DNA of 64,000 nt. It comes from Burhinus oedicnemus (lineage: Eukaryota > Chordata > Aves > Charadriiformes > Burhinidae). The notes under the pieces are model-generated. The model saw nothing but the letters and a program-made list of their open reading frames with translations. It was not told the DNA's origin and searched no databases. The first letter of the stretch is position 1. Each line of letters starts with the position of its first letter. This document shows positions 19,260-64,000 of the stretch, one piece after another. The position numbers and the translations under genes are program-made. The stretch lies in contig VFFE01006862.1 in assembly GCA_008921705.1 (NCBI GenBank), forward strand, positions 688,030 through 752,029, read 5' to 3'.

Positions 19260-19990
19260 CTTTGAATTCACCTACCTGGTGTCTGTCTATCTCAGCTTCA
19301 GTAGGGCTTTTGCTACTGACTTCTGTAATATCCCTATTGACACATTGACGAAGTATGGACTCAGTAAGTGGGTGCGAGGTAGACTGAAAAGTGGCTGAAC
19401 TGTCAGGCTAAAAGGGTTGTGATTAGCAGCACAAAGTCCAGCTGGAGGGCAGTGACTAGTCGTGTACCTCAAGGTTGATACAGGGGACAGTACTGTTTAA
19501 CATCTTCATTAATGGTCTGGATGATGGGACAGAGTGCGACCACAGCAGGTTTGCACTGGGAGGAGTGGTTTATACACCAGAGGGTTGTGCCACCATTCAG
19601 GGGGTCCTCAATGGGCTGAAGAAATGGGCTGACAGGAACCCCAGGCAGTTCAACAAAGGGAAATGCAAAGTCCTGCACCTGGGGGCAGATAACCCCCCAC
19701 ACCAGTACAGGCTGGGGGCCTATTGACTTGGAAAGCTGTATGGGGATCTGGTGGACAAGGTGAACGTGAGACAGCAATGAGCCCTTGCAGCAAAGGCAAC
19801 CAACAGCAACCTGGGCTCCATCAGGCAGAGCATTGCTAGCAGATGGAGGGAGGTGATCCTTCCCCTCTGCTTAGCCTGGTGAGACACATCTGGAGTGCTG
19901 GGTCCAGTGCTGGGCTCCCCCACAGAAGAGACATAGACGTACTGGAGGGAGTCTCATGAAGTGCCACAAAGATCATGAAGGAAGCCTATT
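19260..19990 (+). mobile_element. CR1 retrotransposon RT fragment, old, plus orientation
   Basis: The plus strand resembles the CR1 RT domain: a decayed SKAFDT-like segment near 19290-19310 (FSRAFATDF), then QGTVLFNIFINGLDDG near 19475-19525, then a thumb-like region with KCKVLHLGADNPPHQYRLG. It has several stops and frameshifts, so it is an old copy. Both ends are degraded and no 3' tail is visible. Confidence 0.8.
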
Positions 19991-34652: not shown

Positions 34653-34888
34653 CTAGTGCCGAACAGCCTGGTTGTTGTTTTCTTGGTTTTGAGGTGATTT
34701 TCTTCTAGATTTAGTGTAATTTTGTTGTTTGAGGCCTCGCTGATCCCAGTATCTTGCTTTGTTACGAATTCGGGGCTGATGACACGTGAAGCAGCACTGA
34801 GTCTGTATTGATGGCAGCAAGCACTTGCCAATGCCTTTCAGCCTCTGGCAGAAGTGAACCGACAGTTGGTCTTTGCTGCAGGGTAGCC
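34653..34888 (-). CDS. ADAMTS12: ADAMTS12 terminal exon: PLAC domain and stop
   Basis: Acceptor caccatag on the minus strand; two bases complete a Gly, then 77 codons and TAG (34655-34653). The peptide [19 protein letters not shown]... has six Cys in the PLAC pattern (C, FC, KC, QCC, TC), then a basic, Gln/Asn-rich tail of about 40 residues ending AVRH. PLAC domains close many ADAMTS and papilin-like proteins. It is too fragmented in the wrong frame to appear as a long open frame, so it is easily missed. Confidence 0.93.
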
Positions 34889-37800: not shown

Positions 37801-40800
37801 TTTCTCTTCAGATAAATAGTGGCCAGCAAGATAAATACTTCAACAGACACAGAATGCTGGCTAAAGAAGTGCAAGAGGTGAAGACAGGACTGGTACCTCT
37901 TTATTTTTTCTGCAAATTATCCTCTCTCTAATGTACATCTCTGTGCATAAGACACAATATTACTGATGTGAAGTACATGAAAAGATCTTAGGTACTGTTG
38001 CAGCACCTTTAGATTAATGTTTAAAATAGGTTTTTTATAAAGTAAAATAAATGTGATTAATAAATCAGTAAAATAGCTGCTGTACATTTTGGTATTCAGA
38101 TGCTTATTTTATGCATGTCCCAACATTTTAACTTCCATATTTACGTGTTAGAGTTATACTAACTCTCCATTGTATTATACTCGTATCCCATCTAATGGCT
38201 TTATGTCACAAACAACTCATTAAATTTTCTGGGTTAAATGACTCGCCATTATTTTCTTATTTGTGGCTCCTGGCTTTTGGTGTTCTTTCAATGTTCTCTT
38301 CTGCTGTGAGGACTATTTGTAATGTATGAATAGGTTTATTAAGGAAACTGGAGGGAAAGTTTTATTAGATATACCAGTTTCTTTATAACTAAACATGTAC
38401 TGAAGATACTGGAAAGTTCCCCAAAGATACAGTCCGTATTTGTCAATTAGATTTCCAGAAGCCAAAGTAGATGGCTGTTGCTCAAAATTCAGAATTTCTG
38501 TTTGCGTGGGTAAGTCCAATATTCCAAGAAACTGCTTTAAGGGTCACCCCACTGCCTCACTTCCCCCTCCTCCCCCAACCCTGATAGTCTCGAACAGTAA
38601 AACATTACAATGACTGGAGAGGCTCTGGAAGCACAGACAGACCAAACAGCCTGGTTGTACTTGGAAGTATTCAGCTAGGCATGTATCAGGGACTTCTGTT
38701 AACAACTTGAGCTTTTCTCTCCCTCTCTAAAGATGTTCTGTCCTGTCATTCTCTTGAAATGTTACCTTATTCTATATCTAACTGAACATGGTTGAATTTA
38801 CTACCCAGTAGCCTCTTCCAGTGGAAAATTTCAAATGAGAAATGGAAGAATGTCAGTGGCAACTCCTTTTCTATTAGAAAAGGAAAAATAAAACCAGCCT
38901 TCCATCCAACAACATCTAATGCAGCAACCAATGTTTATCACCTGAAGGAAATGCGATGGGCTGGCTGTGAAATATTTAGTAATATTTTCAAAAGATCTTC
39001 CTTCATAGCCCCAGCTGTGCATAAGAAACTATACTTGCCACAGGCACTGAGGTTCACAGACAAGTGGATAATGTGACCAAATATGGCCAACTCATGACAA
39101 CAAATAAACCAAAAAAGAACTGAATCCTACCGGGCCCCATGCCTGGTTAATCCACTGCGTACAAGGTTGCCTGTTACATGATGCAATGGCATTAGGTCTT
39201 TTTGTCCAGTCACAGTAGCCCTCTTCTGGGCAGTAGATATGTCGCTTTTGCTGGCCACCACCACATGTTCTCGAACACTAACAAAAGAGGTGCACAAACC
39301 CATGAGGAGCAAAGTGGGAATGGATGAGAACCCAGAAACAGACCACAAAGACAGCAGGAAATGTTCTTCATTTAGAAATGCGGAGCCACAGGTAACAAGA
39401 AGTGTGTCACTGACCCATGTGATTTAGAAAGATGTGCAGGGTAGCCTGCATACCAAGTCTTACAATCCAGATATGAAGAAAAGCTCTGCACTGAGACATT
39501 TATTTCATTGTATGCTTGGAAAGAGACAGGAAAAAAGCCATTATTGGCCCAAAATACTTGATGTAAAGCTGCTCCTGACATGTACGAATGCAAGGAATAT
39601 AGGACAAGGAATACAGAAGTGGCAACATAAACAGGCAACACAGAACTGCTCATGCAGCACCACTAGCAACAGTAACTTCCCCAACAGGAATGAGATTGGA
39701 AGTCACACATCTGCAGGATTAATCTGCCGTATTTACTAAAGACACTACAAGTTCATGAGATGCAGCATCTCATTTTTATAAGGCAGTTGGGGACATTAAA
39801 TTTCACCCAATGCATACAATAAATTTACTCGGCAATAAAAGCATCATATAAAGACAGTGACTCAGGTTATTTTTTAAACATTCTTTTGTCCACATTCTAT
39901 TAGTCTATTATTACTTACCAACTGATTTTTCACTATTATTCACTAGGTCTGCAGTACAGCCTTGAAATACACCAAAAATTTCGCACTCTGACATGAAATA
40001 AGGGGCCAAAGGCACCAGATATACTTTGAATAATGCATTGTTTCTGTCCTAAGAGGAATTGCATCCCTATGGACAGAGGACTAGAGTTGACATCTGATAA
40101 ATGAACCTTTTCAATCCAATTCTATCCAGTATCCTCAGCATGAAGACAACTGCCAGCATGGGACAAATGGTTTTGTAAGATTTTTTAAGTGGCAAACGAG
40201 GGCAATCATTTGGCTACTCTTATTTTTCAACCCTTTCTGACTGCTCTGACAGGAAATACGCATATTGCACATAGGTCTCCTCCTTACAGCAGGTGCCACA
40301 TTGCTTCCTCACAGTGGCATGTAAGGAAGCAATGTGATCACCTCCTTTGAAATCCAAAAGCGTCAGGTCCACAGTTCTGCAATCATTGTGGTGCCTTCTC
40401 CAAAGCTGCTTTTAGTGGGAGCAAACACTGAAATGTAATCAGATTGTGTGCTTTAGCTGACATAAATATGTGCCTGGCTGCCTATGAAAGTTTGTCGGCA
40501 TAGATTTATATTACAAAGTGACCCAAAAGTCAGATTTACCTTATGTCTGACCTCTGTCTCTGGCCCCATAACATTCCAACACAAAAATGTAAAGGAAAAT
40601 TCTAAATTAATCACAAAGAGAAAGCAACATTAAAATGGCAGCAAAAGGGATCAGTGTGAATGAATCAGAGTTACTGATCCAACAGGATAGCTAAAACAAA
40701 TCTTCCAGGCCATCTGCTTCTCTGTTTCACAGTATGGTAAATGACAGCTCTACCTGTGTATAACATGCAATCTTAGGAATGATTTTGGGAATTCTTACGA

Positions 40801-43800
40801 ATGTCTGTGGTAATTTTTGCTGTAACTATACGCAAGGACTGTAGAGCCTCTGAGTAGTACCAGCTGCGTGTCTTCCTTTGAGCAAAGTTTACGTAACAGC
40901 ATGGGATTAACAGTCTCTGTTAATTCACACCTAACTGCTCATTCCCAAAGCTTCTTTTAAAGAACAATACCTCATTCCAGGGCTCCACGTGCCACTGCAA
41001 GCAAGGCTCCATGTTACAACTACTGCTGAGTTGTGGTTTATATCCGAGTAATTGGCAATGAAAAGGCCTGAGAAGTCGCTTTTCACGAACATCAATGCAG
41101 TGAACATCTCGGGTCTTGAAACCGCCGTTGCAGTTAGCAGAGCACTGTACAGAAAACAGAAAGGGGCACATCTCCAAATGATGTTCCGCTGAGGGGCTGT
41201 CCCTTCCCCAGTTGCAGAGGAGGAGGAGGAGGAGGAGGACAGACTTGAGCTTTGAGCATCCTGACTCAGTGAGGAAATCTCCAGGTTACCCTAACAAGCA
41301 GCTGTTGTTAGGCTTAAAAACTGTGGTTTTCATCACAGCAAATCAGAACATGCCATATAAATATTTCCCTTTCTTTACTGGAATATCCATTAATAACACA
41401 GATGTGTATTTGATTAGGAAATCTTGCCAGTTATTTCAAAAAATGTCATAGTGAAAGAGTCATAATGCAATAAATAAAAAAAGCAAAACCTATATGCAGG
41501 GAAACTGACAGTTCTTTAATTGTTTCTGAGGGAGGGAGGGAGGAAAGAGGCACAGTTGAGCTGATTTCTCGTTCAGCCATGGAAGAGAGAGGTGTTCATG
41601 GCAGCAGATTGTGCAGGCTGGCAAAACTGCTCCTCATCTTAGCCCATAGACTTGAGTTGCTGCTGATACCACTGGGAGATGGTGGACTCACCCCACAGTA
41701 GCAGTTCCCACCCTCACCCTCCTTGCTCCTCCATGGCACCAGGAGGATCCATAACCCAAAAGCAGCCTGGATGTGAGAGAATGGGAGAGAGGAGAGAGAT
41801 ACCCTGAGCCTCACTCACAACCTGTGAAATCGCTTCTCAGCTTGGAGCACTACTGCTGAGCCAAGCAAGACCTTCCAGTCTCCAACTTCTCCCCAGAGCT
41901 TGCTCCGAGGCCTCATGTAGCAACACCGGGTTCTGTCCCCACATACCAAAGCCCAGGACCTCTCCTGCTAATGAGGAAGAACTAAATTTGCTGCACCAAG
42001 GATAAAGACAAATATACATGTAATCATTTTGCCTTCATCCAGAATTAAAGCAAACTCTGCCTACACCACTGAATAACCTCAGATCAGCTTTTGTCTTTAC
42101 TACCATGATGCAATACAACAACGGATGCTCTTCTCCTTTGCATAAATAAGCATTCTTCAGTTGAACAAGGAACCTGCATATAATATTTCCCCTGGGAGCT
42201 GCAGGATGGGTGGAAGGGGAGTCCATACTCTTGGTTCACAGAAGTTTCTGTCCCTCTGGATATAAACAATGGACAGAAGTGACTGTGGAAGAAACTGAGT
42301 ACACACAGCCCCAAAATACGTGCAAAATACATTTAGTATTAAACTCAGGCTGTAAGATCTAGTCTGAAGCACCTTTCTTTTAGGGCAAGGGAAGAGTTAG
42401 ACGAGAGTAAAGGAACTAGATGATCTCCAGAGGTCCCTTCCAACCCCTGTGATTCTGTGAACAGAGAAAACTTTATTACATTAGCACAGGAATATAGTCA
42501 TCTTGCTGTGCTAATGTGCCTTAGAAATGTTTTAAATGAGTAATGAGAAAAACAATTGCCCCTTGCAACAGCAAAGAAAAATACCCATTTTTATATATGA
42601 AATTGTAATTAGCTTTATATAGTTCAATTGCTGGAAAATAAGGGTATCTAACACAACAGAAATCTGCTAGGAAAAGCCTTTTGTCTCAAACTGACCTCAC
42701 AATTGGACTGACACTTTAAAACATTTGTTTCCCGTAATATTTTATGATTAAACCTGATTTCTAGTTACTTTCTGTGACATAACTATCCTCCACTTTTTGC
42801 AAGAGCAATAACATTAGGAAGAAAAAGTGAGAGTGAAATATGCCCTACTGCAACTGGCACTGCAGAATGTCTATATATCTTTTAAAATTAATTTTGAAGG
42901 TTAAATGTGGTTATATAATGCCTTGGCCTTGCCTGGACTTTCTAAACAGGCATGTATTTCATGTACAAATCAATTCTATGTCAAAGAGCACAATAATATA
43001 ATGTGGGCTTTGTAACTATAATCTTTTCTGTAGACTCCTCTTTGTATGAATCTGCCCTCTACTCCTGCGGCAACAACATTGTCTGCAAAAATGACACATA
43101 CTGAGAAAGTTTGAGAGATCTATCTTTCTCTCTATTAAATCAACCTTATTTCAAATAGAATTTTGTAGTTTTTCACTTTTGAGTCTTTAAAAATAACCCA
43201 CTGTTTGAAGCCCCAATTTTAGACAGCACGAAGACAAAATGTAACAAGTTTCAAGAAGTCACCAAAGTCCTTCCAGGTGTTCATCATGCATCTTACAACA
43301 CCAAAAAAGAACTCAAATGCAATTTCTTGGGTTCCACTTACCACCTTGGACGCTCTTCTGTGTCTTGACCAGGCTTGTGTACATAACTAGGACCAAATAA
43401 GACCCTAGACATAACAGGAATTCTCCCAGTACATTTTTCTTTAGTTTTTGTGATGTAAAACTTTAGAGGTTACATGAATAGACCATGTCATGTAAGAGAT
43501 GAATACACACTAGCAAGGGTGAATAGGAACATGCCAACTCCGTCTCCCAAATTCCCACCTGCTTTTTAAAAGTAGGATAAGCCTCTGGAGGCAGAGATCA
43601 AAAAGAAGCCCCATGCAAATAGGTAGAGCTTTGCCCTAGAACCTCCGTAGAAGATGGACGGTGAGCCTGGCTCTAGCTCTAGATGCAAGAGTTAATGAGC
43701 ACGACCCCCACACAGGAAGAACAAAATTCACAGCAGATGCGTTTCCATAAATAACTTACTCAGGAAATTAGTAATTAGTGCTGAATGGTCAACTGGAATT

Positions 43801-46800
43801 CATTTATGCATTCACTAAGTAAATAATTATTTTTAAAATGAAGTATTTAGAACTTCCTACTCATTGAAGTTAGCAAGTTTACTGTTCACACAGCTATGAA
43901 TGAAGTTACCTTGCTCCAATTTCCTGTTTTCCAGCTAGCACATGGGCGGAGATAACATTTTCTTGCAGGATCAGGCTTTTTTGTGTGCTGACAGTGAGAT
44001 ATGTTCCCGCTGCTGCATTCCACGTGTCTCCAGAAAGCCCCTATTCCACAGGTGGTAGAGCACTGCACACGGGTAAGAGAAAAGCCCAAGGGCAAACTCA
44101 ACGTTAGTAAATCATTCCAGAAACAATCCAGGAACCTAAATATAAATATCTAGAGCCATTTTAGATGACCTAGGTTATCTGAAATGCCCCAAAGAAGATT
44201 TCAAATTCACCTAAATCTTACTTAAGGTTCTGAAGGAGGGCTTTTTGTTGCTTTGTCAAGAAAATACCAATTCTCGTTTATACCATGCAAACTCCTGCTT
44301 ACTGAAACATTCTAAATCTGTACCAGCTGTTCCACTGTTTCCTTCTGTTATCTTTGGGGACACAAAGCAAAATGCCATTGCATTCAATTTTCATCACGGT
44401 TCCCTCTCTATCCCTAATACTGCTGATGAGATATTCAGCAAATTATGGGCATGATGCTGAAAACCCAAAATAAATTGCGTAAGACTCTTGGGAAAAGTGT
44501 GCAGGAAAAGGATTCTTGTAACTAAGATTTCAGAGAGTGGCTAAGTGTTTCCAACATTTGGGAGGGTTTTAGTGTCTGAGGTAAGAGAATATTGATCATG
44601 TCAGTCCAGATCCCAGGAGTGCACACTCTTCAATAAAAAAGTCACCATCATTATATTCTGAAGCAGGAAGAGGTGAAAAGTGGCTGGAGACACCCATTTA
44701 CCTTTTTCTCCCTTATAAAGGGAGGGACAGTGAACTACACACACAGAGTCAAATCGAACACATGCCAAGGAGCCTGTAGCTGGCACAACAAACAGCATAA
44801 ATAATCTTGGATTAAACCACCATAATAATGAAGACAGCAACTGTGATTGTGTGGTTTGAACTACCTAAACAAAAGTGGGAGAGTTACACAGGGAAAGCTG
44901 AATAAGTGTCCTTGGAAAGCTGAAGCTAAGGCAGGAAAAAGAAAAGACCACTGAAGACATGGATGTGTTACCAGATTCAATCAGAGAAATGGAAAAATGG
45001 CTAACGGTCACAAGAAAGAATTTTTTAAAAACTGCACATTATGAAGAAGTATGAATCTGCAATGCCCCTGCCACATGCCATCTCCAGCTTCCAAGATTCC
45101 CGGGACATCTGTCCAAGAGGCCACAAAGATCCTGCTAAATGGACTGAGTATGGCTCCTCCATTTTGCACAGTCACATACATATCCAAGACACCTTGTCTG
45201 TTCAAGAAGATGGACTGTCCTTGCCTTGGCTGCTGACTGTTTGATGGCTCCCCCAAACCCTGTCTGACAACAAGACTTTATTGAAGGGCTGCTTAGTCTT
45301 TAACCAAAGCCCCATTCTTGGCATTCAAGCTCCAGGGATGATGCTGGGCAGATCATACTTACAAAGCTTTATGTTCTTTTTTGAGGGACATGAAACACAG
45401 CAGGATTCTTTCAAAAAATGTTGTGTGCAGGTACAGAGACAAGAGAGAAGGCGTGATGCTGTAAATAACACTGGAGAAATGCTTTAGCTTTCTTGACCAT
45501 GGAGGAGGATGATTGGAAGATGTACATATATATACTTGCGCTGAAGTCCAGGAAGAGTTAAGAGGCGGGCTTATTGCTTTTCCCTTTGGTAATTCAAGAA
45601 CCAAGAGTTCTTTCTTGTCATAGTTGATGTCTCTTATAGAGGAAGGGGGTGCAGGTGACTTTTCATGACCAGTAACAGAGGTGCAGAATGAGAAGATCTG
45701 GTGGTAATGCAGTACCTTTGGCACCCAGAAAGCTCTTAGAAAGGGAAAATGACATAGACTCATAGAATCATAGAATGGTTTAGGTTGGAAGGGACCTAAA
45801 AGATCATCTAGTTTCCCACCCCCTTGCCGTGGGCAAGGACACCTCCTACTAGACCAGGTTGCTCAAAGCCTCATCCAACCTAGCCTTGAACGCTTCCAGG
45901 GATGGGACCTCCACAACTTCCCTGGCAACCTCTTCCAGTGCCTCGCTACCCTCACAGTAAAGAACTTGTCCCGAGATCTAATCTAAATCCCCTCTTCTAG
46001 TTTGAAGCCATTACCCCTCATCCTATCACCACATGCCCTTGTAAAGAGTCCCTCTCCAGCTTTCTTGTAGGCCCCTTTCAGATACTGGAAGGCTGCTATA
46101 AGGTCTCCCTGGAGCCTTCTCTTCTCCAGGTTGAACAACCCCAACTCTCTCAGCCTGGCCTCATAGCAGAGGTGTTCTAACCCTCTGATCATTATTGTGG
46201 CCCTCTTCTGGATCCACTCCAACAGCTCCATGTCCTTCTTATGTTGGGGGCTCAGAGGTGGACACAGTATTCCAGGTGGGGTCTCACGAGAGCGGAGTAG
46301 AGGGGCAGAATCACCTCCCTCGACCTGCTGGTCATGCTTCTTTTGATGCAGCCCAAGATATGGTTGGCCTTCTGGGTTGCGAGCGCACATTGCTGGCTCA
46401 TGTTGAGCTTCTCATCTACCAACACCCCCAAGTCCCTCTCCTCAGGGCTGCTCTCAATCCTCTCTGCCCCCAGCCTATATTTGTGCATGGGATTGCCTCA
46501 AACCAACATGCAGGACCTTGCATTTGGCCTTTGAACTTCATGAGGTTGGCACAGGCCCACCTCTCAAGCCTGTCCAGGTCCCTCTGGATGGCATCCCTTC
46601 CCTCCAGCGTGTCAACCGCTCCACACAGCTTGGTGTCGTTGGCAAACTTGCTGAGGGTGTACTCAGTGCCTACATCGATGTCGCCCACAAACATGTTAAG
46701 TAGTACCGATCCCAGTACTGACCCCTGAGGAACACCACTTGTCATGGCTTGCCACTTGGACATCCCAGAATGACCTGGGAAAGTGATAGGAAAGAAGTTA

Positions 46801-49800: not shown

Positions 49801-52800
49801 ACACAAGTATTACAATCATTCAGTAATGACCAGGGATGAGAGGAAACTGAGACAAGTCACTGCCTTTCAGACCAAGTGTCTTCCAAATGCTTTACACCTC
49901 AAAAGAGTTTTCAAATGCCCTGTAAGCTGTACTTGCTTCAATTAATCAAACAGAAAGACAGCACTTTCGAAATTGAGTATTACAGGATGTTAACACCTGT
50001 TCTGATTGAATTTCATTACCTTTTTAATTTCTAAAGTTTGTTTTGGCACAGCCATTATGGCAGATAAAATAACGGTCTGTTTCTACATTCAAACAAGACA
50101 TAGTATAACACTGTAATTATTAGCTGCTGTATCCAAAGAATGCTGTACAACCACAACCAGTGGCCTGATGACTTTATTTTCTACGCCAACCAGACAAAAT
50201 GCTTTTACTTTACCAATGCTATAATGCAGTTCCAATACCCAATCACCTGAACTTCAAACAAAGGTGCAGAAATGCAGTGTCTCCACATGGACATGTGCTT
50301 GACAAATTACAAACCCCAGATATACCAGTTTAATTTTGGACTAACATTCTTGTCTTGGCTTTGTAGATTCAAACTGTTTTTACCAGGCTGAATGCTGCTC
50401 TGAGTTCGGAAGTATTTGTTTAATGGTGGATACGAATACTGATGGTGGGATGAGATAGAAATGTACCACAAAAATCTCTTATGCTAACAGCAAACTAAAA
50501 TATATATTTAAGTATCCGTGGTATTAGTGTGCTTTATACAGTAATAAAGCTAGCCTAACTACATGACCCTGATCACATACTAAGTTAGAAAACACATATA
50601 ATTTAGATAGAAATTATATGTAAGTGAAGGTTATAACCTAATAGCACATCTATCGCTAACTTGTGTTATGTACTTATTTGGAAATACAACCATATTCATT
50701 TGGTGTCTGCAGAATAATAGATTAATTTTTTGCTGTGCTCTAAAACAAAACTTTTGAGGTATTTCTGGTTCTAGTCAAACCTGAATGTCATGCCCCTGAA
50801 AGAGGAATGGAATGGAATTACGAATAGGATAGGATAGGATAGGATAGGATAGGATAGGATAGGATAGGATAGGATAGGATAGGATAGGATAGGATATTAT
50901 ATTTTCAGTTGGAAGGGACCTACAACAATCATCTAGTCCAACTGCCTGACCAATTCAGGGCCAACCAAAAGTTAAAGCATGTTATTAAGGACATTGTCCA
51001 AATGCATTTGAAACACTGACAGGCCTGGGGCATCGACCACCTCTCTAGGAAGCCTGTTCCAGTGTGCGACCACCCTCTGGGTAAAGAAATGCTTCCTAAT
51101 GTCCAGTCTAGACCTTCCCTGATGCAGCTTTGAACCATTCCCATGCGTCCTGTCACTGGGTACCAGGGAGAAGAGCTCAGCACCTCCCTCTCCATTTCTC
51201 CTCAGGAAGCTGTAGCGAGCAATGAGGTCGCCCCTCAGCCTCCTCTCCTCCAAACTAGACAAGCCCAAAGTCCTCAGCTGCTCCTCCCAGGACATTCCTT
51301 CCAGCCCTTTCACCAGCTGTGCTGCCCTCCTCTGGATGTGTCCAAGTCCCTTCACATCCTTCTGAAATTGTGGGGCCCAGAACTGCACACAGTGCTCAAG
51401 GTGAGGCTGCACCAATGCTGAATACAGTGGGATAATCCTCTCTTTTGACGGGCTGGTTGTGCTGTGCTTGGTGCACCCCGGGATGCGGTTTGCCCTCTTG
51501 GCTGCCAGGGCACGCTGCTGACTCACGTGGAGCCTGCTGTTGAGCAGCACCCCCAGATCCCTTTCTGCAGGGCTGCTCTCCTGCCACTCCCCTCCCAATT
51601 TATACTTGTGCTGGCGTTAGTCTGTCCCAGGTGTAGAATCTGGTATTTGGACTTGTTAAATTTCATGCCATTAATCATTACCCAGTGCTGCAATCTATCT
51701 AGATCCCTCTGCAAGGCCTCCTGTCCCTCAAGAGTCAACAGGTCCTCCCAGTTTGGTGTTCTCAGCAAACTAGCTAATGGTGCATTCAACTTCTGCATTC
51801 AGATCATTGATAACTATATCGAACACAACTGGCCCTAGAATTAAACCGTGAGGAGCAACACTTGTGTCTGGTCACCAGCCAGATGTAGCCCCATTCACTA
51901 CAGCCCTTTGAGCCCTGCACTTCAGGCAGTTCTTCACCCAGCACACTGTGAACCTGCTCATCACACAGTTGGGCAACTTGTTCAGAAGGATGCTGTGACA
52001 GACAGTGTCAAAAGCCTTACTAATATCCAGAAGAACTACATCTACAACCTTCCCTTCATCCACTTTCCATAGAAGGATATCAAATTACTTAAACAGGACT
52101 TTCCCTTTGTAAACCTAAGCTGAATGTGCCTGATGATTGGCATTATTCTTTACATGCCTTTAAACAGTACCCAGTATAATCATCCCCATAATTTTTCCAG
52201 GAATGAAGTTAGACTAAAAGGTCTGTAGTTTCCTGGGTCTTCCCTCACATCTTTTTTGCAAATTGGAATAACGCTGTCTAGCTTTCAGTCATCAGCGACC
52301 TCCCCAGACTCCCAAGACCTTTGGTAGAGGATCGAGAGGGGTCCTGCCATAACATCTGCCAGCTCCTTCTCTACTCTGGGATGAGTCCCATCAGGCCCCA
52401 TAGACTTGTGAACATTCAGTTGATACAGCTGGTCCCTTACAATTTCAGTGTCCAGTTATGCATAGTTTTGCAGAATCCATAAATACAGATCCATTCTATG
52501 TAAACTAATGTTTGATACTCCAGGTTACCAATTTTTTTGTAAGAGAAGTATTTCATTTGAATGTATGATACTCATTTCAGATAATCGTTGACAAACAAGA
52601 AGCTTTATTTCCTCAGCAGTGTTTCAGACAGCTGTTCACACTCTCCACTTCTTATGAGTTAAAAATAACTTACCTCGCTCCAGTTGCCTACGATCCAGTA
52701 GGCATCACCAGGCAAATTGTTGGATGTTATTAGGTGGCTGTTTTCTGTGACATTCGTTAAAACACCCCCGGATGTTGCACTTTGGTTCCTCAGAGCATGC

Positions 52801-55800
52801 TTGAGAGCTGACAATTGTGTGCTGGAGGTTACGGTGTCAGGTAGCTTCTTTTCTCTTTTGTCATCAGTCTGGTCTTTTGGTACACGACCAAACACTGTGG
52901 GCATTACTGTAACCGATGCTTGTGGGGTAGTTACTTCTACAACAGGCACATCAACTTGCAGACTGTTTGCTGTTGTTGGAAATGCCAACCCTTGGGCTGC
53001 TTTGCTAACAGGAAGGAGTGTAGAAGGTTCTTGGTGATGAGATGCTGGGGGGTGCTGAGAAGTCACGCTCTCATTTTGAAGGACAGCAGAGCTGGTATCT
53101 AGGGTTGTGCTCCTGGTTCTGATTTCAGGATTGAGTTCTGTGCTGTAAAGGATATCAGCTGGTTTCTCACTGCCTCCAACTGACCCATCAATGTCGTCAG
53201 ATTCTTCAGTTAAGTAATCATAGCTGGAAGTTATTTCTGGACTACTGGTAAAAGAGGAGACAGGAGTGTTCTCATTTCTTTGCACCTCACTCTCTACAGT
53301 AGAAACTAACTCACTTTCAGAAATATTTTCAGCATACCTTATAATTTCAGTACTTAAACTATTATGAAAAGGCCATGAAGTAGTATTTTGGTGTGAACTA
53401 TTTTCAGTAGACACAACCGGATAATTGTAAACATCACTTGATCCAGCAAAATTATTTTGTAATGTTTTGTTGGCTGCTCCATCTTCTTCTGAGACATTAC
53501 TCAAACCAGAGGATGTAGGCAAACAGGGAGTTACACTTTCAGGCTTGGGTATTTTTGTCGTTGTATGGGACCTTGGGCTTGGCATGGGTATTCTGTGAGG
53601 AGGACTCCGTTCAGGGTTAGTAGTTGTTTTTCTGATTATGATCTTTCCTCTTCTGGGTGCCGGTGGAGGTATCAGAAATCTTCCAGCAGAAGGACACTGC
53701 TGGAGACCACACAGGGCCTTAGAGTTTGGTCTTTTGGAAGTATCACATGGCTCATCATTATTTTTGGCACAAGTGACATTACGAGTCCTTATTCCACCAC
53801 CACAAGTAACCGTGCACTGCAAATGAAACAGAATTAATATATCTCCCCTCTTCATTCTGCTGCACATATCAATAAAAATAAGTATCAAATGGCACCTGTC
53901 TATAATAAAGAAGCATCATTACAAATAATCAATAACAAAGCTTTTCCTGAGGAACAAGCCCTTCATTCTAGTGATGTTCCACTATCATGGAGCTGTTTCC
54001 AAATTTTCAGAACAGTAAATACGACCTTGGAGAAAGAGAAGTGAAAAAAGACTATGTGAAAAAAAAAAAGAAAGTAATATGCTAGAATTTGATTTCTTCA
54101 GTAAATCACAAAAGTTGTTTAGCCAATACCTTTTCCACCAGCATTATAAAAAACAGACTAAAAACCTGCCATCAAAAACATAGCTGACTGGCTCAGTGCT
54201 GGCTACTCACAGTGCCACAAATCCACTGTGATTATTCATGTGGCTCACAGATCCTTGTTGACTTTATGAAATGGATTTTTCATTCAGTCCTAGTGTAACC
54301 ACCACATGCTGTCAGGGCTGCTAGCATGTGTCTCCTAAATTACAGACTACTGAAAATAATTAACCTATCTGGCTTCTATTTAAATGGAAGCACTGTTGTG
54401 TATAAAGGGTGCTGGAAGCTAAGGAGACCCAGTTTTTCTGTGATGTTTTTCATCCTCAGCCCCATAGGCACAGCCATGCCTTCAGCAGCTGTCGCTCCAC
54501 TGAGGACTTTCTGAAATTTCAACACACTTCTCTGGTTTGAGTTACTAAGGCTGGAAAACTGGTTTGGTATGAATGGAGTTGTTACATGCAACCTACTCAA
54601 GGAAGTCTTCCTAGGATGCAAGGGAGCCTGACCAGCTGATTCAGCTGGCTTAAACCAGGTGCTCAACATGATGTGATGAACACTCCTATTGCCAGCACTT
54701 TAAAGCCCCTGGTATATCTAAACCTTTTTAGAGCTACTCTAGGTCATGGAGCAGTAGAAACACCAGTGACTTTGTGTTACTGGGGCGCTCTCTGTTGTTA
54801 ACATCTGTAAAATAACATCAGCTCTGCTTCAACAGGAGCAGGGAAGAAAGCAGAGTAACCTCAGAGTAGATAAATTCATTAGCTATTCTGTCTGTCCTCC
54901 TTGCACTTCCAGCTCTATAGCTCGTTTAAAGTACTCGGAGGTATGTGAGTTTACATCGGCTGCCATTTGACCTCTGAAGTTATTCAGTAAAGGATTTTGC
55001 TTATTGAGGAAGACAGCAACTACTAACACTATGTTGCTGCTTACACAGAAATACAACACCCTTATTTTGTCAGACTTTGCCACTTGGATGATTTAGATAA
55101 GCATTTGTGTGAGTTAAAAGGAACATCCAACCTCATTAACTTTTTGGGGTAATGGCTGTCTCCCAGAATCAGCTTTGAAAAATCTCTGCTTGATTACGGC
55201 CATGTACTAATAAGAGATTCAGAATGGCTACAACACTCTATCCTCATTATCTGCCTAATTAACTACATTCAGTTTATAAGATACAGAATTATTTTCAAAC
55301 AGCCAGATAAGCTCAGAGCAAAAGGAAGTTTCTCCTGTGTAAAATCTCACCCGTACATTCACCAACAAAGAACATTCTGCAGTTACAAGTCTCCTGACAA
55401 TCCTGTCATTTGTACAGGTGAAATAGTCTGTCGTACGCTCCCTCCCCAGTTTCTACAGTTGTAGAAAGTTATTTTTGTTAATAACTTGCAAATCTAATCC
55501 AACGACACATGAGCACCAGCTGTATTCTGTAACAGCATGCCATTTCTATACAATCGTACTGCTAGCCATGTAATCCCAGTTTATTTTTTCACAGAGAGTT
55601 AAAAGATGGTGGCTATTCAATTCACAAAACAATCAATATTTAGTGATGATGGTTTGTGAGCAGCATAAACTGAATTAATACTGTCACAGAATTCTTTTAG
55701 TTCATTATCTGTATCTGCTCTCAAACACAATAGTGCTTGGTTAAAAAAAGAAAGCTAGGAGAAAGAATGGAGAGGAGTTTTCAAAAAGGATATAGACTAG

Positions 55801-58800
55801 ACTAGAATATTTTCAGTTGGAAGGGACCTACAGCAATCATCTAGTCCAACTGCCTGACCAATTCAGGGCCAACCAAAAGTTAAAGCATGTTATTAAGGGC
55901 ATTGTCCAAATGCATTTGAAATACTGATAGACCTGGGGCATTGACCACCTCTGTAGGAAGCCTGTTCCAGTGTGTGACCACCCTCTGGGTAAAGAAATGC
56001 TTCCCAATGTCCAGTCAAAAGCTCCCCTGGTGCAGCTTTGAACCATTTCCATGCGTCCTGTCACTGGGTACCAGGGAGAAGAGCTCAGCACCTCCCTCTC
56101 CATTTCTCCTCAGGAAGCTGTAGCAAGCAATGAGGTCGCCCCTCAGCCTCCTCTCCTCCAAACTAGACAAGCCCAAAGTCCTCAGCTGCTCCTCCCAGGA
56201 CATTCCTTCCAGCCCTTTCACCAGCTGTTCTGCCCTCCTCTGGATGTGTCCAAGTCCCTTCACATCCTTCTGAAATTGTGGGGCCCAGAACTGCACACAG
56301 TGCTCAAGGTGAGGCCACACCAACGCTGAATACAGCGGGATAATCCCCTCTTTTGACGGGCTGGTTGTGCTGTGCTTGATGCACCCCGGGATGCGGTTTG
56401 CCCTCTCGGCTGCCAGGGCACGCTGCTGACTCACGTGGAGCCTGCTGTTGAGCAGCACCCCCAGATCCCTTTCTGCAGGGCTGCTCTCCTGCCACTCCCC
56501 TCCCAATTTATACTTGTGCTGGCGTTAGTCTGTCCCAGGTGTAGAATCTGGTATTTGGACTTGTTAAATTTCATGCCATTAATCATTACCCAGTGCTGCA
56601 ATCTATCTAGATCCCTCTGCAAGGCCTCCTGTCCCTCAAGAGTCAACAGGTCCTCCCAGTTTGGTGTTCTCAGCAAACTAGCTAATGGTGCATTCAACTT
56701 CTGCATTCAGATCATTGATAACTATATCGAACACAACTGGCCCTAGAATTAAACCGTGAGGAGCAACACTTGTGTCTGGTCACCAGCCAGATGTAGCCCC
56801 ATTCACTACAGCCCTTTGAGCCCTGCACTTCAGGCAGTTCTTCACCCAGCACACTGTGAACCTGCTCATCACACAGTTGGGCAACTTGTTCAGAAGGATG
56901 CTGTGACAGACAGTGTCAAAAGCCTTACTAATATCCAGAAGAACTACATCTACAACCTTCCCTTCATCCACTTTCCATAGAAGGATATCAAATTACTTAA
57001 ACAGGACTTTCCCTTTGTAAACCTAAGCTGAATGTGCCTGATGATTGGCATTATTCTTTACATGCCTTTAAACAGTACCCAGTATAATCATCCCCATAAT
57101 TTTTCCAGGAATGAAGTTAGACTAAAAGGTCTGTAGTTTCCTGGGTCTTCCCTCACATCTTTTTTGCAAATTGGAATAACGCTGTCTAGCTTTCAGTCAT
57201 CAGCGACCTCCCCAGACTCCCAAGACCTTTGGTAGAGGATCGAGAGGGGTCCTGCCATAACATCTGCCAGCTCCTTCTCTACTCTGGGATGAGTCCCATC
57301 AGGCCCCATAGACTTGTGAACATTCAGTTGATACAGCTGGTCCCTTACAATTTCAGTGTCCAGTTATGCATAGTTTTGCAGAATCCATAAATACAGATCC
57401 ATTCTATGTAAACTAATGTTTGATACTCCAGGTTACCAATTTTTTTGTAAGAGAAGTATTTCATTTGAATGTATGATACTCATTTCAGATAATCGTTGAC
57501 AAACAAGAAGCTTTATTTCCTCAGCAGTGTTTCAGACAGCTGTTCACACTCTCCACTTCTTATGAGTTAAAAATAACTTACCTCGCTCCAGTTGCCTACG
57601 ATCCAGTAGGCATCACCAGGCAAATTGTTGGATGTTATTAGGTGGCTGTTTTCTGTGACATTCGTTAAAACACCCCCGGATGTTGCACTTTGGTTCCTCA
57701 GAGCATGCTTGAGAGCTGACAATTGTGTGCTGGAGGTTACGGTGTCAGGTAGCTTCTTTTCTCTTTTGTCATCAGTCTGGTCTTTTGGTACACGACCAAA
57801 CACTGTGGGCATTACTGTAACCGATGCTTGTGGGGTAGTTACTTCTACAACAGGCACATCAACTTGCAGACTGTTTGCTGTTGTTGGAAATGCCAACCCT
57901 TGGGCTGCTTTGCTAACAGGAAGGAGTGTAGAAGGTTCTTGGTGATGAGATGCTGGGGGGTGCTGAGAAGTCACGCTCTCATTTTGAAGGACAGCAGAGC
58001 TGGTATCTAGGGTTGTGCTCCTGGTTCTGATTTCAGGATTGAGTTCTGTGCTGTAAAGGATATCAGCTGGTTTCTCACTGCCTCCAACTGACCCATCAAT
58101 GTCGTCAGATTCTTCAGTTAAGTAATCATAGCTGGAAGTTATTTCTGGACTACTGGTAAAAGAGGAGACAGGAGTGTTCTCATTTCTTTGCACCTCACTC
58201 TCTACAGTAGAAACTAACTCACTTTCAGAAATATTTTCAGCATACCTTATAATTTCAGTACTTAAACTATTATGAAAAGGCCATGAAGTAGTATTTTGGT
58301 GTGAACTATTTTCAGTAGACACAACCGGATAATTGTAAACATCACTTGATCCAGCAAAATTATTTTGTAATGTTTTGTTGGCTGCTCCATCTTCTTCTGA
58401 GACATTACTCAAACCAGAGGATGTAGGCAAACAGGGAGTTACACTTTCAGGCTTGGGTATTTTTGTCGTTGTATGGGACCTTGGGCTTGGCATGGGTATT
58501 CTGTGAGGAGGACTCCGTTCAGGGTTAGTAGTTGTTTTTCTGATTATGATCTTTCCTCTTCTGGGTGCCGGTGGAGGTATCAGAAATCTTCCAGCAGAAG
58601 GACACTGCTGGAGACCACACAGGGCCTTAGAGTTTGGTCTTTTGGAAGTATCACATGGCTCATCATTATTTTTGGCACAAGTGACATTACGAGTCCTTAT
58701 TCCACCACCACAAGTAACCGTGCACTGCAAATGAAACAGAATTAATATATCTCCCCTCTTCATTCTGCTGCACATATCAATAAAAATAAGTATCAAATGG

Positions 58801-61800
58801 CACCTGTCTATAATAAAGAAGCATCATTACAAATAATCAATAACAAAGCTTTTCCTGAGGAACAAGCCCTTCATTCTAGTGATGTTCCACTATCATGGAG
58901 CTGTTTCCAAATTTTCAGAACAGTAAATACGACCTTGGAGAAAGAGAAGTGAAAAAAGACTATGTGAAAAAAAAAAAGAAAGTAATATGCTAGAATTTGA
59001 TTTCTTCAGTAAATCACAAAAGTTGTTTAGCCAATACCTTTTCCACCAGCATTATAAAAAACAGACTAAAAACCTGCCATCAAAAACATAGCTGACTGGC
59101 TCAGTGCTGGCTACTCACAGTGCCACAAATCCACTGTGATTATTCATGTGGCTCACAGATCCTTGTTGACTTTATGAAATGGATTTTTCATTCAGTCCTA
59201 GTGTAACCACCACATGCTGTCAGGGCTGCTAGCATGTGTCTCCTAAATTACAGACTACTGAAAATAATTAACCTATCTGGCTTCTATTTAAATGGAAGCA
59301 CTGTTGTGTATAAAGGGTGCTGGAAGCTAAGGAGACCCAGTTTTTCTGTGATGTTTTTCATCCTCAGCCCCATAGGCACAGCCATGCCTTCAGCAGCTGT
59401 CGCTCCACTGAGGACTTTCTGAAATTTCAACACACTTCTCTGGTTTGAGTTACTAAGGCTGGAAAACTGGTTTGGTATGAATGGAGTTGTTACATGCAAC
59501 CTACTCAAGGAAGTCTTCCTAGGATGCAAGGGAGCCTGACCAGCTGATTCAGCTGGCTTAAACCAGGTGCTCAACATGATGTGATGAACACTCCTATTGC
59601 CAGCACTTTAAAGCCCCTGGTATATCTAAACCTTTTTAGAGCTACTCTAGGTCATGGAGCAGTAGAAACACCAGTGACTTTGTGTTACTGGGGCGCTCTC
59701 TGTTGTTAACATCTGTAAAATAACATCAGCTCTGCTTCAACAGGAGCAGGGAAGAAAGCAGAGTAACCTCAGAGTAGATAAATTCATTAGCTATTCTGTC
59801 TGTCCTCCTTGCACTTCCAGCTCTATAGCTCGTTTAAAGTACTCGGAGGTATGTGAGTTTACATCGGCTGCCATTTGACCTCTGAAGTTATTCAGTAAAG
59901 GATTTTGCTTATTGAGGAAGACAGCAACTACTAACACTATGTTGCTGCTTACACAGAAATACAACACCCTTATTTTGTCAGACTTTGCCACTTGGATGAT
60001 TTAGATAAGCATTTGTGTGAGTTAAAAGGAACATCCAACCTCATTAACTTTTTGGGGTAATGGCTGTCTCCCAGAATCAGCTTTGAAAAATCTCTGCTTG
60101 ATTACGGCCATGTACTAATAAGAGATTCAGAATGGCTACAACACTCTATCCTCATTATCTGCCTAATTAACTACATTCAGTTTATAAGATACAGAATTAT
60201 TTTCAAACAGCCAGATAAGCTCAGAGCAAAAGGAAGTTTCTCCTGTGTAAAATCTCACCCGTACATTCACCAACAAAGAACATTCTGCAGTTACAAGTCT
60301 CCTGACAATCCTGTCATTTGTACAGGTGAAATAGTCTGTCGTACGCTCCCTCCCCAGTTTCTACAGTTGTAGAAAGTTATTTTTGTTAATAACTTGCAAA
60401 TCTAATCCAACGACACATGAGCACCAGCTGTATTCTGTAACAGCATGCCATTTCTATACAATCGTACTGCTAGCCATGTAATCCCAGTTTATTTTTTCAC
60501 AGAGAGTTAAAAGATGGTGGCTATTCAATTCACAAAACAATCAATATTTAGTGATGATGGTTTGTGAGCAGCATAAACTGAATTAATACTGTCACAGAAT
60601 TCTTTTAGTTCATTATCTGTATCTGCTCTCAAACACAATAGTGCTTGGTTAAAAAAAGAAAGCTAGGAGAAAGAATGGAGAGGAGTTTTCAAAAAGGATA
60701 TAGACTAGACTAGAATATTTTCAGTTGGAAGGGACCTACAGCAATCATCTAGTCCAACTGCCTGACCAATTCAGGGCCAACCAAAAGTTAAAGCATGTTA
60801 TTAAGGGCATTGTCCAAATGCATTTGAAATACTGATAGACCTGGGGCATTGACCACCTCTGTAGGAAGCCTGTTCCAGTGTGTGACCACCCTCTGGGTAA
60901 AGAAATGCTTCCCAATGTCCAGTCAAAAGCTCCCCTGGTGCAGCTTTGAACCATTTCCATGCGTCCTGTCACTGGGTACCAGGGAGAAGAGCTCAGCACC
61001 TCCCTCTCCATTTCTCCTCAGGAAGCTGTAGCAAGCAATGAGGTCGCCCCTCAGCCTCCTCTCCTCCAAACTAGACAAGCCCAAAGTCCTCAGCTGCTCC
61101 TCCCAGGACATTCCTTCCAGCCCTTTCACCAGCTGTTCTGCCCTCCTCTGGATGTGTCCAAGTCCCTTCACATCCTTCTGAAATTGTGGGGCCCAGAACT
61201 GCACACAGTGCTCAAGGTGAGGCCACACCAACGCTGAATACAGCGGGATAATCCCCTCTTTTGACGGGCTGGTTGTGCTGTGCTTGATGCACCCCGGGAT
61301 GCGGTTTGCCCTCTCGGCTGCCAGGGCACGCTGCTGACTCACGTGGAGCCTGCTGTTGAGCAGCACCCCCAGATCCCTTTCTGCAGGGCTGCTCTCCTGC
61401 CACTCCCCTCCCAATTTATACTTGTGCTGGCGTTAGTCTGTCCCAGGTGTAGAATCTGGTATTTGGACTTGTTAAATTTCATGCCATTAATCATTACCCA
61501 GTGCTGCAATCTATCTAGATCCCTCTGCAAGGCCTCCTGTCCCTCAAGAGTCAACAGGTCCTCCCAGTTTGGTGTTCTCAGCAAACTAGCTAATGGTGCA
61601 TTCAACTTCTGCATTCAGATCATTGATAACTATATCGAACACAACTGGCCCTAGAATTAAACCGTGAGGAGCAACACTTGTGTCTGGTCACCAGCCAGAT
61701 GTAGCCCCATTCACTACAGCCCTTTGAGCCCTGCACTTCAGGCAGTTCTTCACCCAGCACACTGTGAACCTGCTCATCACACAGTTGGGCAACTTGTTCA

Positions 61801-63632
61801 GAAGGATGCTGTGACAGACAGTGTCAAAAGCCTTACTAATATCCAGAAGAACTACATCTACAACCTTCCCTTCATCCACTTTCCATAGAAGGATATCAAA
61901 TTACTTAAACAGGACTTTCCCTTTGTAAACCTAAGCTGAATGTGCCTGATGATTGGCATTATTCTTTACATGCCTTTAAACAGTACCCAGTATAATCATC
62001 CCCATAATTTTTCCAGGAATGAAGTTAGACTAAAAGGTCTGTAGTTTCCTGGGTCTTCCCTCACATCTTTTTTGCAAATTGGAATAACGCTGTCTAGCTT
62101 TCAGTCATCAGCGACCTCCCCAGACTCCCAAGACCTTTGGTAGAGGATCGAGAGGGGTCCTGCCATAACATCTGCCAGCTCCTTCTCTACTCTGGGATGA
62201 GTCCCATCAGGCCCCATAGACTTGTGAACATTCAGTTGATACAGCTGGTCCCTTACAATTTCAGTGTCCAGTTATGCATAGTTTTGCAGAATCCATAAAT
62301 ACAGATCCATTCTATGTAAACTAATGTTTGATACTCCAGGTTACCAATTTTTTTGTAAGAGAAGTATTTCATTTGAATGTATGATACTCATTTCAGATAA
62401 TCGTTGACAAACAAGAAGCTTTATTTCCTCAGCAGTGTTTCAGACAGCTGTTCACACTCTCCACTTCTTATGAGTTAAAAATAACTTACCTCGCTCCAGT
62501 TGCCTACGATCCAGTAGGCATCACCAGGCAAATTGTTGGATGTTATTAGGTGGCTGTTTTCTGTGACATTCGTTAAAACACCCCCGGATGTTGCACTTTG
62601 GTTCCTCAGAGCATGCTTGAGAGCTGACAATTGTGTGCTGGAGGTTACGGTGTCAGGTAGCTTCTTTTCTCTTTTGTCATCAGTCTGGTCTTTTGGTACA
62701 CGACCAAACACTGTGGGCATTACTGTAACCGATGCTTGTGGGGTAGTTACTTCTACAACAGGCACATCAACTTGCAGACTGTTTGCTGTTGTTGGAAATG
62801 CCAACCCTTGGGCTGCTTTGCTAACAGGAAGGAGTGTAGAAGGTTCTTGGTGATGAGATGCTGGGGGGTGCTGAGAAGTCACGCTCTCATTTTGAAGGAC
62901 AGCAGAGCTGGTATCTAGGGTTGTGCTCCTGGTTCTGATTTCAGGATTGAGTTCTGTGCTGTAAAGGATATCAGCTGGTTTCTCACTGCCTCCAACTGAC
63001 CCATCAATGTCGTCAGATTCTTCAGTTAAGTAATCATAGCTGGAAGTTATTTCTGGACTACTGGTAAAAGAGGAGACAGGAGTGTTCTCATTTCTTTGCA
63101 CCTCACTCTCTACAGTAGAAACTAACTCACTTTCAGAAATATTTTCAGCATACCTTATAATTTCAGTACTTAAACTATTATGAAAAGGCCATGAAGTAGT
63201 ATTTTGGTGTGAACTATTTTCAGTAGACACAACCGGATAATTGTAAACATCACTTGATCCAGCAAAATTATTTTGTAATGTTTTGTTGGCTGCTCCATCT
63301 TCTTCTGAGACATTACTCAAACCAGAGGATGTAGGCAAACAGGGAGTTACACTTTCAGGCTTGGGTATTTTTGTCGTTGTATGGGACCTTGGGCTTGGCA
63401 TGGGTATTCTGTGAGGAGGACTCCGTTCAGGGTTAGTAGTTGTTTTTCTGATTATGATCTTTCCTCTTCTGGGTGCCGGTGGAGGTATCAGAAATCTTCC
63501 AGCAGAAGGACACTGCTGGAGACCACACAGGGCCTTAGAGTTTGGTCTTTTGGAAGTATCACATGGCTCATCATTATTTTTGGCACAAGTGACATTACGA
63601 GTCCTTATTCCACCACCACAAGTAACCGTGCA
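34653..63632 (-). CDS. ADAMTS12: ADAMTS12, C-terminal exons, with the TSR/mucin exon present three times
   Basis: ADAMTS12 is a secreted zinc metalloprotease of the extracellular matrix; only its non-catalytic C-terminal part is here. In transcript order the exons are 63632-62490, 58724-57582, 53816-52674 (three identical TSR plus mucin-spacer exons), 44062-43910, 41144-40971, 39277-39131, 37149-36996 (one TSR each) and 34888-34653 (PLAC domain and stop). With one mucin exon this is 2,007 nt and 668 residues; with all three it is 4,293 nt and 1,430 residues. Every junction is GT-AG and in phase. Identity rests on the domain order, the GLQQCPS segment after the first TSR, CDWTKRP in the fourth, and the PLAC six-Cys pattern. 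ADAMTS7, the closest paralogue, also has a mucin domain, but the sequence details and the TARS1 neighbour favour ADAMTS12. Upstream exons (signal peptide, protease, first TSRs) lie right of the window. Confidence 0.95.
34889..36995 (-). other. ADAMTS12 last intron
   Basis: About 2.1 kb, containing the ancient CR1 end at 35500-35970. The remainder holds nothing I recognise. Confidence 0.8.
35500..35970 (+). mobile_element. Ancient amniote CR1 3' end (turtle/crocodile type)
   Basis: The plus strand follows the 3' part of old CR1 elements: near 35665-35705 caggctgtgaacctgtggaa, then a Lys-rich ORF2 end (gcaggatcaaaaagtgatgc), and at the end tagaccactgatctacccag then gggcatttcttatgttt, which matches the conserved 'gaccactggtctgacccagtatggc' type ending of these elements. 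It is much more diverged than the bird-type CR1s in the window. Confidence 0.65.
36996..37149 (-). CDS. ADAMTS12: ADAMTS12 exon: last thrombospondin type 1 repeat
   Basis: Acceptor ctctttcag, donor gtatga on the minus strand. 51 codons plus one base: [18 protein letters not shown]..., ending SLQECRKST. The Cys pattern CxxxCGGG, then KC, MC, KC, EC is a TSR. It starts in phase 0 like the other TSR exons but ends in phase 1, joining the PLAC exon with a Gly. Confidence 0.95.
37150..39130 (-). other. ADAMTS12 intron, AT-rich
   Basis: About 2 kb of AT-rich sequence; no repeat or extra exon recognised. Confidence 0.8.
39131..39277 (-). CDS. ADAMTS12: ADAMTS12 exon: thrombospondin type 1 repeat with CDWTKRP
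   Basis: Acceptor tttgttag, donor gtagga on the minus strand. 49 codons, phase 0/0, from [16 protein letters not shown] to [11 protein letters not shown]. The [10 protein letters not shown] segment closely resembles the human counterpart. This donor departs from the consensus more than the others in the gene (CCG|gtagga). Confidence 0.93.
39278..40970 (-). other. ADAMTS12 intron
   Basis: About 1.7 kb with no repeat or exon that I recognise. Confidence 0.8.
40971..41144 (-). CDS. ADAMTS12: ADAMTS12 exon: thrombospondin type 1 repeat
   Basis: Acceptor ttctgtacag, donor gtattg on the minus strand. 58 codons, phase 0/0, from [18 protein letters not shown] to [10 protein letters not shown]. The RPFHCQLLG segment marks it as the repeat just after the CYLRPC-containing one. 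Asn replaces Gly in the usual CGGG (CNGG), similar to the CSGG I recall in human. Confidence 0.95.
41218..41239. repeat. (AGG)7 microsatellite
   Basis: Seven AGG triplets in a row, located 74 bp upstream (transcript sense) of an ADAMTS12 exon, where it reads as a CCT pyrimidine run. Confidence 0.9.
42414..42460 (+). mobile_element. CR1 3' tip, extremely 5'-truncated
   Basis: Only the last 47 bp or so of a CR1: ctagatgatctccagaggtc, ccttccaacccctg, then one octamer tgattctgtga. It lies inside an ADAMTS12 intron in antisense orientation. Confidence 0.85.
43910..44062 (-). CDS. ADAMTS12: ADAMTS12 exon: thrombospondin type 1 repeat after the mucin spacer
   Basis: Acceptor gtgtgcag, donor gtaact on the minus strand. 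51 codons, phase 0/0, from [16 protein letters not shown] to [11 protein letters not shown]. It directly follows the last mucin exon, whose end (IVGNWSE) supplies the start of this repeat. [13 protein letters not shown] is nearly the same as I recall in mammals. Confidence 0.95.
45760..46768 (-). mobile_element. CR1 retrotransposon, 1.0 kb, RT and ORF2 C-terminus, frameshifted
   Basis: Octamer tail at the left (tcatagaatcatagaatgg), then on the minus strand from the right: [27 protein letters not shown], then [35 protein letters not shown] and [20 protein letters not shown]. The RT catalytic block reads FAND where an active enzyme has F/YADD. At least two frameshifts split the open frame. It is 5'-truncated just before the GVPQG block. 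Confidence 0.93.
47277..47430 (-). mobile_element. CR1 3' end fragment
   Basis: Tail cagaatcacagaatggttga, then the CR1 3' UTR and the last codons of ORF2, about 150 bp, decayed at its right end. Confidence 0.85.
47885..48380 (+). mobile_element. Ancient CR1-like RT fragment
   Basis: Plus strand: tcccgcagggctctgtccag corresponds to the RT block PQGS, followed by a FINDLxx-like stretch (attttcattaactaattgaa) and a decayed ADDTKLG-like stretch (tcagatgataccaagttgga). Upstream, from 47885, weaker RT similarity is visible. Highly diverged, so an old insertion. Confidence 0.6.
48376..48416. repeat. (TA)n/(CA)n microsatellite
   Basis: Alternating TA and CA dinucleotides over about 40 bp at the end of the old CR1-like fragment. 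Confidence 0.9.
50826..50895. repeat. (AGGAT)14 pentanucleotide array
   Basis: Fourteen uninterrupted AGGAT units, preceded by a few GGAAT units (50804-50818). It abuts the 3' end of the CR1 at 50896, so it probably grew from that element's tail, which in this CR1 group is a pentamer rather than an octamer. Confidence 0.97.
50896..52456 (-). mobile_element. CR1 retrotransposon A, 1.56 kb, left flank of the tandem array
   Basis: The minus strand from the right encodes RT pieces [17 protein letters not shown], then [20 protein letters not shown] (52063 down), then [18 protein letters not shown], then an unbroken 208-codon ORF2 C-terminus (51598 down to 50972). Stops and frameshifts break the RT core, so it is inactive. 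Up to 51499 it differs from the two internal CR1 copies at about two dozen sites; beyond that they appear identical. Confidence 0.93.
52674..53816 (-). CDS. ADAMTS12: ADAMTS12 TSR plus mucin-spacer exon, copy 1 (most 3')
   Basis: 381 codons, phase 0/0; acceptor tttgcag and donor gtaagt on the minus strand. Residues 1-41 are a thrombospondin type 1 repeat ([16 protein letters not shown] ... CGLQQC). Residues 42 to about 370 are a Ser/Thr/Pro-rich mucin-like spacer with about ten N-X-S/T sequons in the exon, expected to be heavily glycosylated. It ends WIVGNWSE, the beginning of the next repeat. No stop or frameshift. In mammals this spacer varies fast, and only the flanking TSR is strongly conserved, as here. 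Confidence 0.96.
55804..57364 (-). mobile_element. Hybrid CR1 (B/A) at first unit junction
   Basis: The left 600 bp (3' end of the element) carries its own set of variants and a different tail flank (tagactagactagaat instead of the AGGAT array). From 56408 it equals CR1 A. It is best explained as a recombinant joining the 3' part of a second CR1 (B) to the 5' part of A. The ORF2 tail lost its last part relative to A: the frame stops after GSKLHQGSF at 56015. Confidence 0.9.
57582..58724 (-). CDS. ADAMTS12: ADAMTS12 TSR plus mucin-spacer exon, copy 2
   Basis: Same 381-codon product as copy 1, with identical splice sites. The intron between copies 1 and 2 is 3,765 bp. If spliced in, copy 2 ends GNWSE and copy 1 begins CTVTC, which recreates a proper TSR boundary (WSE-C), so the repeated protein would have alternating TSR and mucin segments. 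It may be a real coding exon, or an artefact if the array is a mis-assembly. Confidence 0.85.
60712..62272 (-). mobile_element. Hybrid CR1 (B/A) at second unit junction
   Basis: Appears identical to the hybrid at 55804-57364, with the same tail flank and variants. Its being a second hybrid, not a plain B, shows that the array extends by whole units. Confidence 0.9.
62490..63632 (-). CDS. ADAMTS12: ADAMTS12 TSR plus mucin-spacer exon, copy 3
   Basis: Third identical copy of the 381-codon exon, with the same acceptor and donor. Upstream ADAMTS12 exons, or further array units, lie beyond the right edge, so the total number of copies is unknown. Confidence 0.85.
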
Positions 63633-64000
63633 CTGCAAATGAAACAGAATTAATATATCTCCCCTCTTCATTCTGCTGCACATATCAATAAAAATAAGTA
63701 TCAAATGGCACCTGTCTATAATAAAGAAGCATCATTACAAATAATCAATAACAAAGCTTTTCCTGAGGAACAAGCCCTTCATTCTAGTGATGTTCCACTA
63801 TCATGGAGCTGTTTCCAAATTTTCAGAACAGTAAATACGACCTTGGAGAAAGAGAAGTGAAAAAAGACTATGTGAAAAAAAAAAAGAAAGTAATATGCTA
63901 GAATTTGATTTCTTCAGTAAATCACAAAAGTTGTTTAGCCAATACCTTTTCCACCAGCATTATAAAAAACAGACTAAAAACCTGCCATCAAAAACATAGC

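Follow-up and report, generated by a model that had tools for sequence, protein, structure and literature searches.

An array of ADAMTS12 mucin exons with hybrid CR1 joins in Burhinus oedicnemus: probable in-frame exon amplification or assembly loop

Introduction

Within the human gene LPA, for apolipoprotein(a), the copy number of the kringle IV type 2 (KIV-2) repeat sets the length of the protein, people have from 1 to more than 40 copies, and the exon copies in the reference are 98-100% identical (PMC4378929). Judged by analogy, that repeat is the closest working analogue of an array present in 64,000 nucleotides of Burhinus oedicnemus DNA (part of contig VFFE01006862.1; the whole stretch is called the window below), where the mucin exon of ADAMTS12 recurs head to tail. 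The two have in common an intragenic array of near-identical copies, a unit of about 5 kb (5.5 kb in LPA), and complete exons in every unit with the frame kept (PMC4378929). They differ in gene and module, in having two exons per unit there and one here, and in that KIV-2 has been measured in populations whereas the present array is known from one assembly.

Three avian comparisons are also pertinent. The single-copy ADAMTS12 of Larus and Alca has the same exon order, with thrombospondin repeats (TSRs) 5-8 and the last exon here as in Alca, but it has one mucin module in proteins of 1,586 (Larus) and 1,637 (Alca) residues, where at least three are predicted here. In parrots, copies of CR1, a long interspersed nuclear element (LINE), are a possible substrate for non-allelic homologous recombination, as is considered here, but the proposal there is for exon loss (PMC8854603), in contrast to an in-frame exon gain with the hybrid CR1 still visible. 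The chicken K locus (PRLR/SPEF2) likewise involves tandem duplication on a bird Z, but of 176 kb and with PRLR truncated (PMC5863816), as against 4.9 kb with the frame kept. Late feathering in the chicken has been linked to that partial tandem duplication of PRLR, and on the turkey Z ADAMTS12 is some 0.4 Mb from PRLR (PMC5863816).

How, then, is the Burhinus sequence to be read? We put the probability at roughly 58% that it contains an array of at least three ADAMTS12 mucin exons with hybrid-CR1 joins, which arose by very recent unequal crossing-over and is predicted to encode three modules instead of one. That the tandem copies are real is, taken by itself, on balance probable.

The repeat array and its exons

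When the 64 kb are searched for shared 24-mers, a spacing of 4,908 bp prevails among the repeats with 7,829 pairs, and it is due to head-to-tail units of the ADAMTS12 array that begin at 50,899 and continue until the window stops at 64,000, i.e., at least 2.67 units. As a single 20-mer (spacing 3) is all that recurs in positions 1-50,000, the array is not a background property of the window; and as there are 0 N letters in the 64 kb, no gap separates the copies. An earlier note on this DNA had described three head-to-tail 4,908-bp units starting at 51,500, of which the unit length and tandem order stand, but the start is at 50,899 and the third unit is partial. The units, delimited by identity at the 4,908-bp offset, are as follows.

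50899-55806, minus strand: unit 1, last in transcript order
55807-60714, minus strand: unit 2
60715-64000, minus strand: unit 3, cut at the window end, with 3,286 of its 4,908 bp present

Between units 1 and 2 there are 24 differences in 4,908 positions (20 of the 24 are transitions), all of them within 50,925-51,499 and thus in the first 601 bp of the unit. From 51,500 onward there are 0 differences over 4,307 bp, and there are again 0 between units 2 and 3 over the visible 3,286 bp. Rfam gave 0 matches in the window at gathering cut-offs, i.e., no RNA gene in the unit.

Each unit has one mucin exon of 1,143 bp on the minus strand, complete even in unit 3 despite the cut at the window end. 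The three, each with AG/GT sites and 381 codons, are identical in sequence.

62490-63632, minus strand: copy in unit 3, first of the visible mucin exons in the transcript
57582-58724, minus strand: copy in unit 2, second in the transcript
52674-53816, minus strand: copy in unit 1, last in the transcript

Directly before each copy stands TTTCATTTGCAG, and directly after it GTAAGT. TTTGCAG precedes every copy, the AG/GT sites are intact in all three, and the donor GAG|GTAAGT is a consensus match. The exon is open throughout its 381 codons, its phase is 0/0, and at its start Pfam recognizes an ADAMTS-type TSR.

CR1 borders and hybrid joins

The stretch with the 24 differences is part of a CR1 LINE on the minus strand. 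The relevant features are these.

50899-51788, minus strand: CR1-A, the CR1 LINE at the left array border, by blastn/tblastn CR1 homology; the left edge is where homology is lost, and the right end is at least 51788
55807-56407, minus strand: first hybrid CR1, the part with 24 differences from CR1-A in 601 positions in the unit comparison, of presumed CR1-B origin
56408-56481, minus strand: putative crossover interval (95%, from 4% divergence; equivalent in unit 3, 61316-61389)
60715-61315, minus strand: second hybrid CR1, CR1-B-type part, by unit comparison

Both joins of the array bear the same hybrid, with the differences (in unit-1 positions) extending up to 51,499 and none after, alike in units 2 and 3. 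The sequence can be read as deriving from two CR1 elements that inserted independently, A and B, with the internal joins going from B to A. Hybrid joins of this B-then-A type are the expected product of non-allelic homologous recombination between repeats in the same orientation. Two marks of that process are borders in homologous repeats with non-homologous outer flank, and a join that is a hybrid of two repeats. The first is present on the left, where homology begins at 50,899 and unit 1 is flanked by (ATAGG)14.6, which bears no relation to what stands before units 2 and 3; the second is what both joins display. In the visible part CR1-A and CR1-B are 4% apart and their longest exact match is 103 bp. 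Given that divergence, the crossover would at 95% lie within about 74 bp after 56,407.

The (ATAGG)14.6 microsatellite, at 50824-50896, is perfect and adjoins the 3' end of CR1-A; it is possibly an unusual CR1 tail. Further CR1-like fragments are at 11980-12345, 16758-17201, 19562-19876 and 45923-46665. They are clearly older than A and B, as the blastn identity to CR1-A, found for three of them, is only 65.6-73.5%.

The gene and the predicted protein

Among the matches listed, the closest database relatives are bird ADAMTS12 proteins, the identity over the mucin exon being 88% with Larus and 87% with Alca. A tblastn search with the ADAMTS12 protein of Alca torda places the mucin exon, TSR5-8 and the last exon in order, with fitting splice sites and PF19030 matches, and the downstream exons that it locates are the following.

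43910-44062, minus strand: TSR5 exon, phase 0/0
40971-41144, minus strand: TSR6 exon, phase 0/0
39131-39277, minus strand: TSR7 exon, phase 0/0
36996-37149, minus strand: TSR8 exon, ending in phase 1
34653-34888, minus strand: last coding exon, with the stop codon

To judge from this sequence the gene is ADAMTS12, the orthology resting on exon order and similarity, with the single mucin module not a defining feature; the assignment draws on the C-terminal TSRs with the mucin module set among them, the upstream exons for metalloproteinase, disintegrin-like, Cys-rich and spacer regions being beyond 64,000. One mucin module is what ADAMTS12 leads one to expect, and instead three identical mucin exons are present. 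Since TSR5, TSR6 and TSR7 are also 0/0 exons, gain or loss of whole exons is tolerated in this stretch of the gene.

What would the product be? The end of the exon, ..YWIVGNWSE, followed by its own start, CTVTCGGG.., forms a complete TSR, which scores 49.2 bits against PF19030 (cut-off 23.8). The rebuilt repeat scores as a normal one, above both native neighbours, TSR4 of Larus having 45.4 and the native mucin-to-TSR5 join 42.3 bits. Were all copies spliced, the result would be an ADAMTS12 with three mucin/chondroitin-sulphate modules instead of one and with two additional TSRs, of about 2,400 residues versus about 1,635 when a single copy and TSR5 are counted, estimates in which the part upstream of the mucin exon (967 residues) is borrowed from Larus. 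Each copy contributes 10 N-glycosylation sequons and 2 Ser-Gly pairs, and its mucin part, 335 residues long, contains 87 Ser/Thr. The module bears the chondroitin sulphate chains that make ADAMTS7 and ADAMTS12 proteoglycans (PMC11925103, PMC4448532), and its tripling would most likely lengthen and charge the tether that links the catalytic half to the C-terminal TSRs. Such a longer, more glycosylated tether is predicted to alter matrix retention and reach, not catalysis.

The earlier note had recognized the gene, on what is now seen to be the minus strand, and several of its claims agree with these results: a complete 1,143-bp exon with intact splice sites in each unit; a 0/0 phase and 381 codons, so that splicing of every copy would keep the frame and add 762 residues; a TSR boundary rebuilt at the NWSE-CTVTC copy junction; and TSR-mucin order followed by the four remaining TSRs. 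What it missed is the CR1 mechanism, i.e., the hybrid joins and the CR1 borders.

Other ADAMTS12 proteins

Two protein searches covered lengths of roughly 690-2,190 and 1,265-4,025 residues and supplied the best 120 of 681 and the best 120 of 155 matches, all of them cluster representatives at 90% identity. On masked realignment a second mucin module was found in 0 of the 150 proteins retrieved; in the 43 whose first mucin module scored above 600 the best second score was 43, and the longest ADAMTS12 among the matches listed has 1,643 residues. In a tree of 28 relatives, hand-chosen from 46, plus the window (the 18 omitted being further isoforms of one species, and others; some tip labels derive from truncated names), the window groups with Charadrius, Larus and Alca with support of 93/93, which is below the tool's mark of 95; Charadrius is nearest, at 93% over 463 columns. 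By this tree a shorebird source is likely. No ADAMTS12 exon array is named in the titles and openings of the literature searched, a scope that has most subscription papers and all bioRxiv preprints outside it.

Bird ADAMTS12 models do vary in TSR number, TSR5 being absent from those of Larus (isoform X2), Apteryx and Mycteria, and TSR7 from those of Numida and Struthio, and here the alternatives are isoforms, annotation or real exon losses. The model of the stork Mycteria americana has CR1 ORF2 (open reading frame 2) residues where the mucin exon should begin; this is probably an annotation error, and it suggests that CR1s are present in the same intron in a stork. Hoatzin isoform X3 has a shortened mucin exon joined directly to TSR5, with a possible internal splice donor.

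Origin, age and alternative explanations

On the reading favoured here, a crossover between CR1-A, lying in the intron that follows the mucin exon, and CR1-B, lying in the one that precedes it, would have generated the duplication, and a second unequal exchange, this time between identical units, three or more copies. How long ago? Over the 7,593 bp compared, divergence among the units has a 95% upper bound of 0.04%. Neutral change in birds proceeds at near 2 per 10^9 per site per year, and the two figures together would make the array younger than about 100,000 years. Perfect identity of the units means either a very recent event or a wrong assembly.

The wrong assembly is the more serious competitor, though its chances appear somewhat short of even. 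It would be a false exon gain, with one real exon between CR1-A and CR1-B and its unit written repeatedly, through passage of an assembler or polisher round the CR1 loop or through under-collapsed reads. Several points go in its favour and count against the array as read here. Zero differences over 4,307 bp and 3,286 bp are also to be expected of an assembler walking a repeat loop; the borders are within a repeat common to both ends, and the same join occurs twice, which fits a single CR1-CR1 event followed by exchange between identical units and equally an assembler loop. Bird assemblies are documented to contain false exon gains, of which the 'homotype' class shows no heterozygous differences (PMC9516828). 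Of the 150 proteins retrieved, 0 have a second mucin module. The array as read here is further weakened in that the pure CR1-B copy is outside the window, so that CR1-B is seen solely through the hybrids. Against an artefact, the copies are joined without an N, and the 103 bp of exact match between CR1-A and CR1-B in the visible part, up to 51,499, is short for a long-read tangle. Differences of heterozygous type are also missing, and this, together with the lack of N, weighs against the heterotype class only. A false duplication from two haplotypes, for which differences are expected, can be set aside on this ground, and again what applies to the heterotype class does not extend to the homotype.

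If the copies are real, must the protein be changed? The extra exons could be skipped, or the array could be a rare neutral or harmful allele, a passing structural variant. We consider this unlikely. The very recent age implied by the 0.04% bound is in keeping with it, as is the alternative use of exons that bird models show in this same stretch, but the three copies share identical splice sites, with the consensus GAG|GTAAGT, so that none appears weaker than the others; the TSR boundary and the frame are, moreover, preserved.

Replication-based template switching that used the CR1s, in place of meiotic unequal crossing-over, would likewise yield identical units with one recurrent join, but is improbable, the join being inside long homology and not microhomology, which favours homologous recombination. 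A chance repeat is ruled out by the 7,829 24-mer pairs at one offset, and a wider segmental duplication by the end of homology at the CR1 edge.

What it means

Copy-number polymorphism of the array, read as real, is plausible, because the age bound falls within the age of standing variation. A bolder form of the idea is a size-polymorphic ADAMTS12, in which a Z-linked, CR1-seeded repeat of the KIV-2 kind sets how many mucin/chondroitin-sulphate modules stand between the protease and its matrix-binding C-terminus and stalk length varies between birds; this we hold to be doubtful. Should the array instead be an assembly loop, it would serve as a warning that a false exon gain can preserve frame, splice sites and domain boundaries. 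If the array is true, it would provide a clear example, in birds, of in-frame exon amplification driven by a LINE, and a natural experiment in the stalk length of a protease-proteoglycan with the recombination scar still visible, one in which the role of the mucin module would be directly testable across birds with one, two or three copies.

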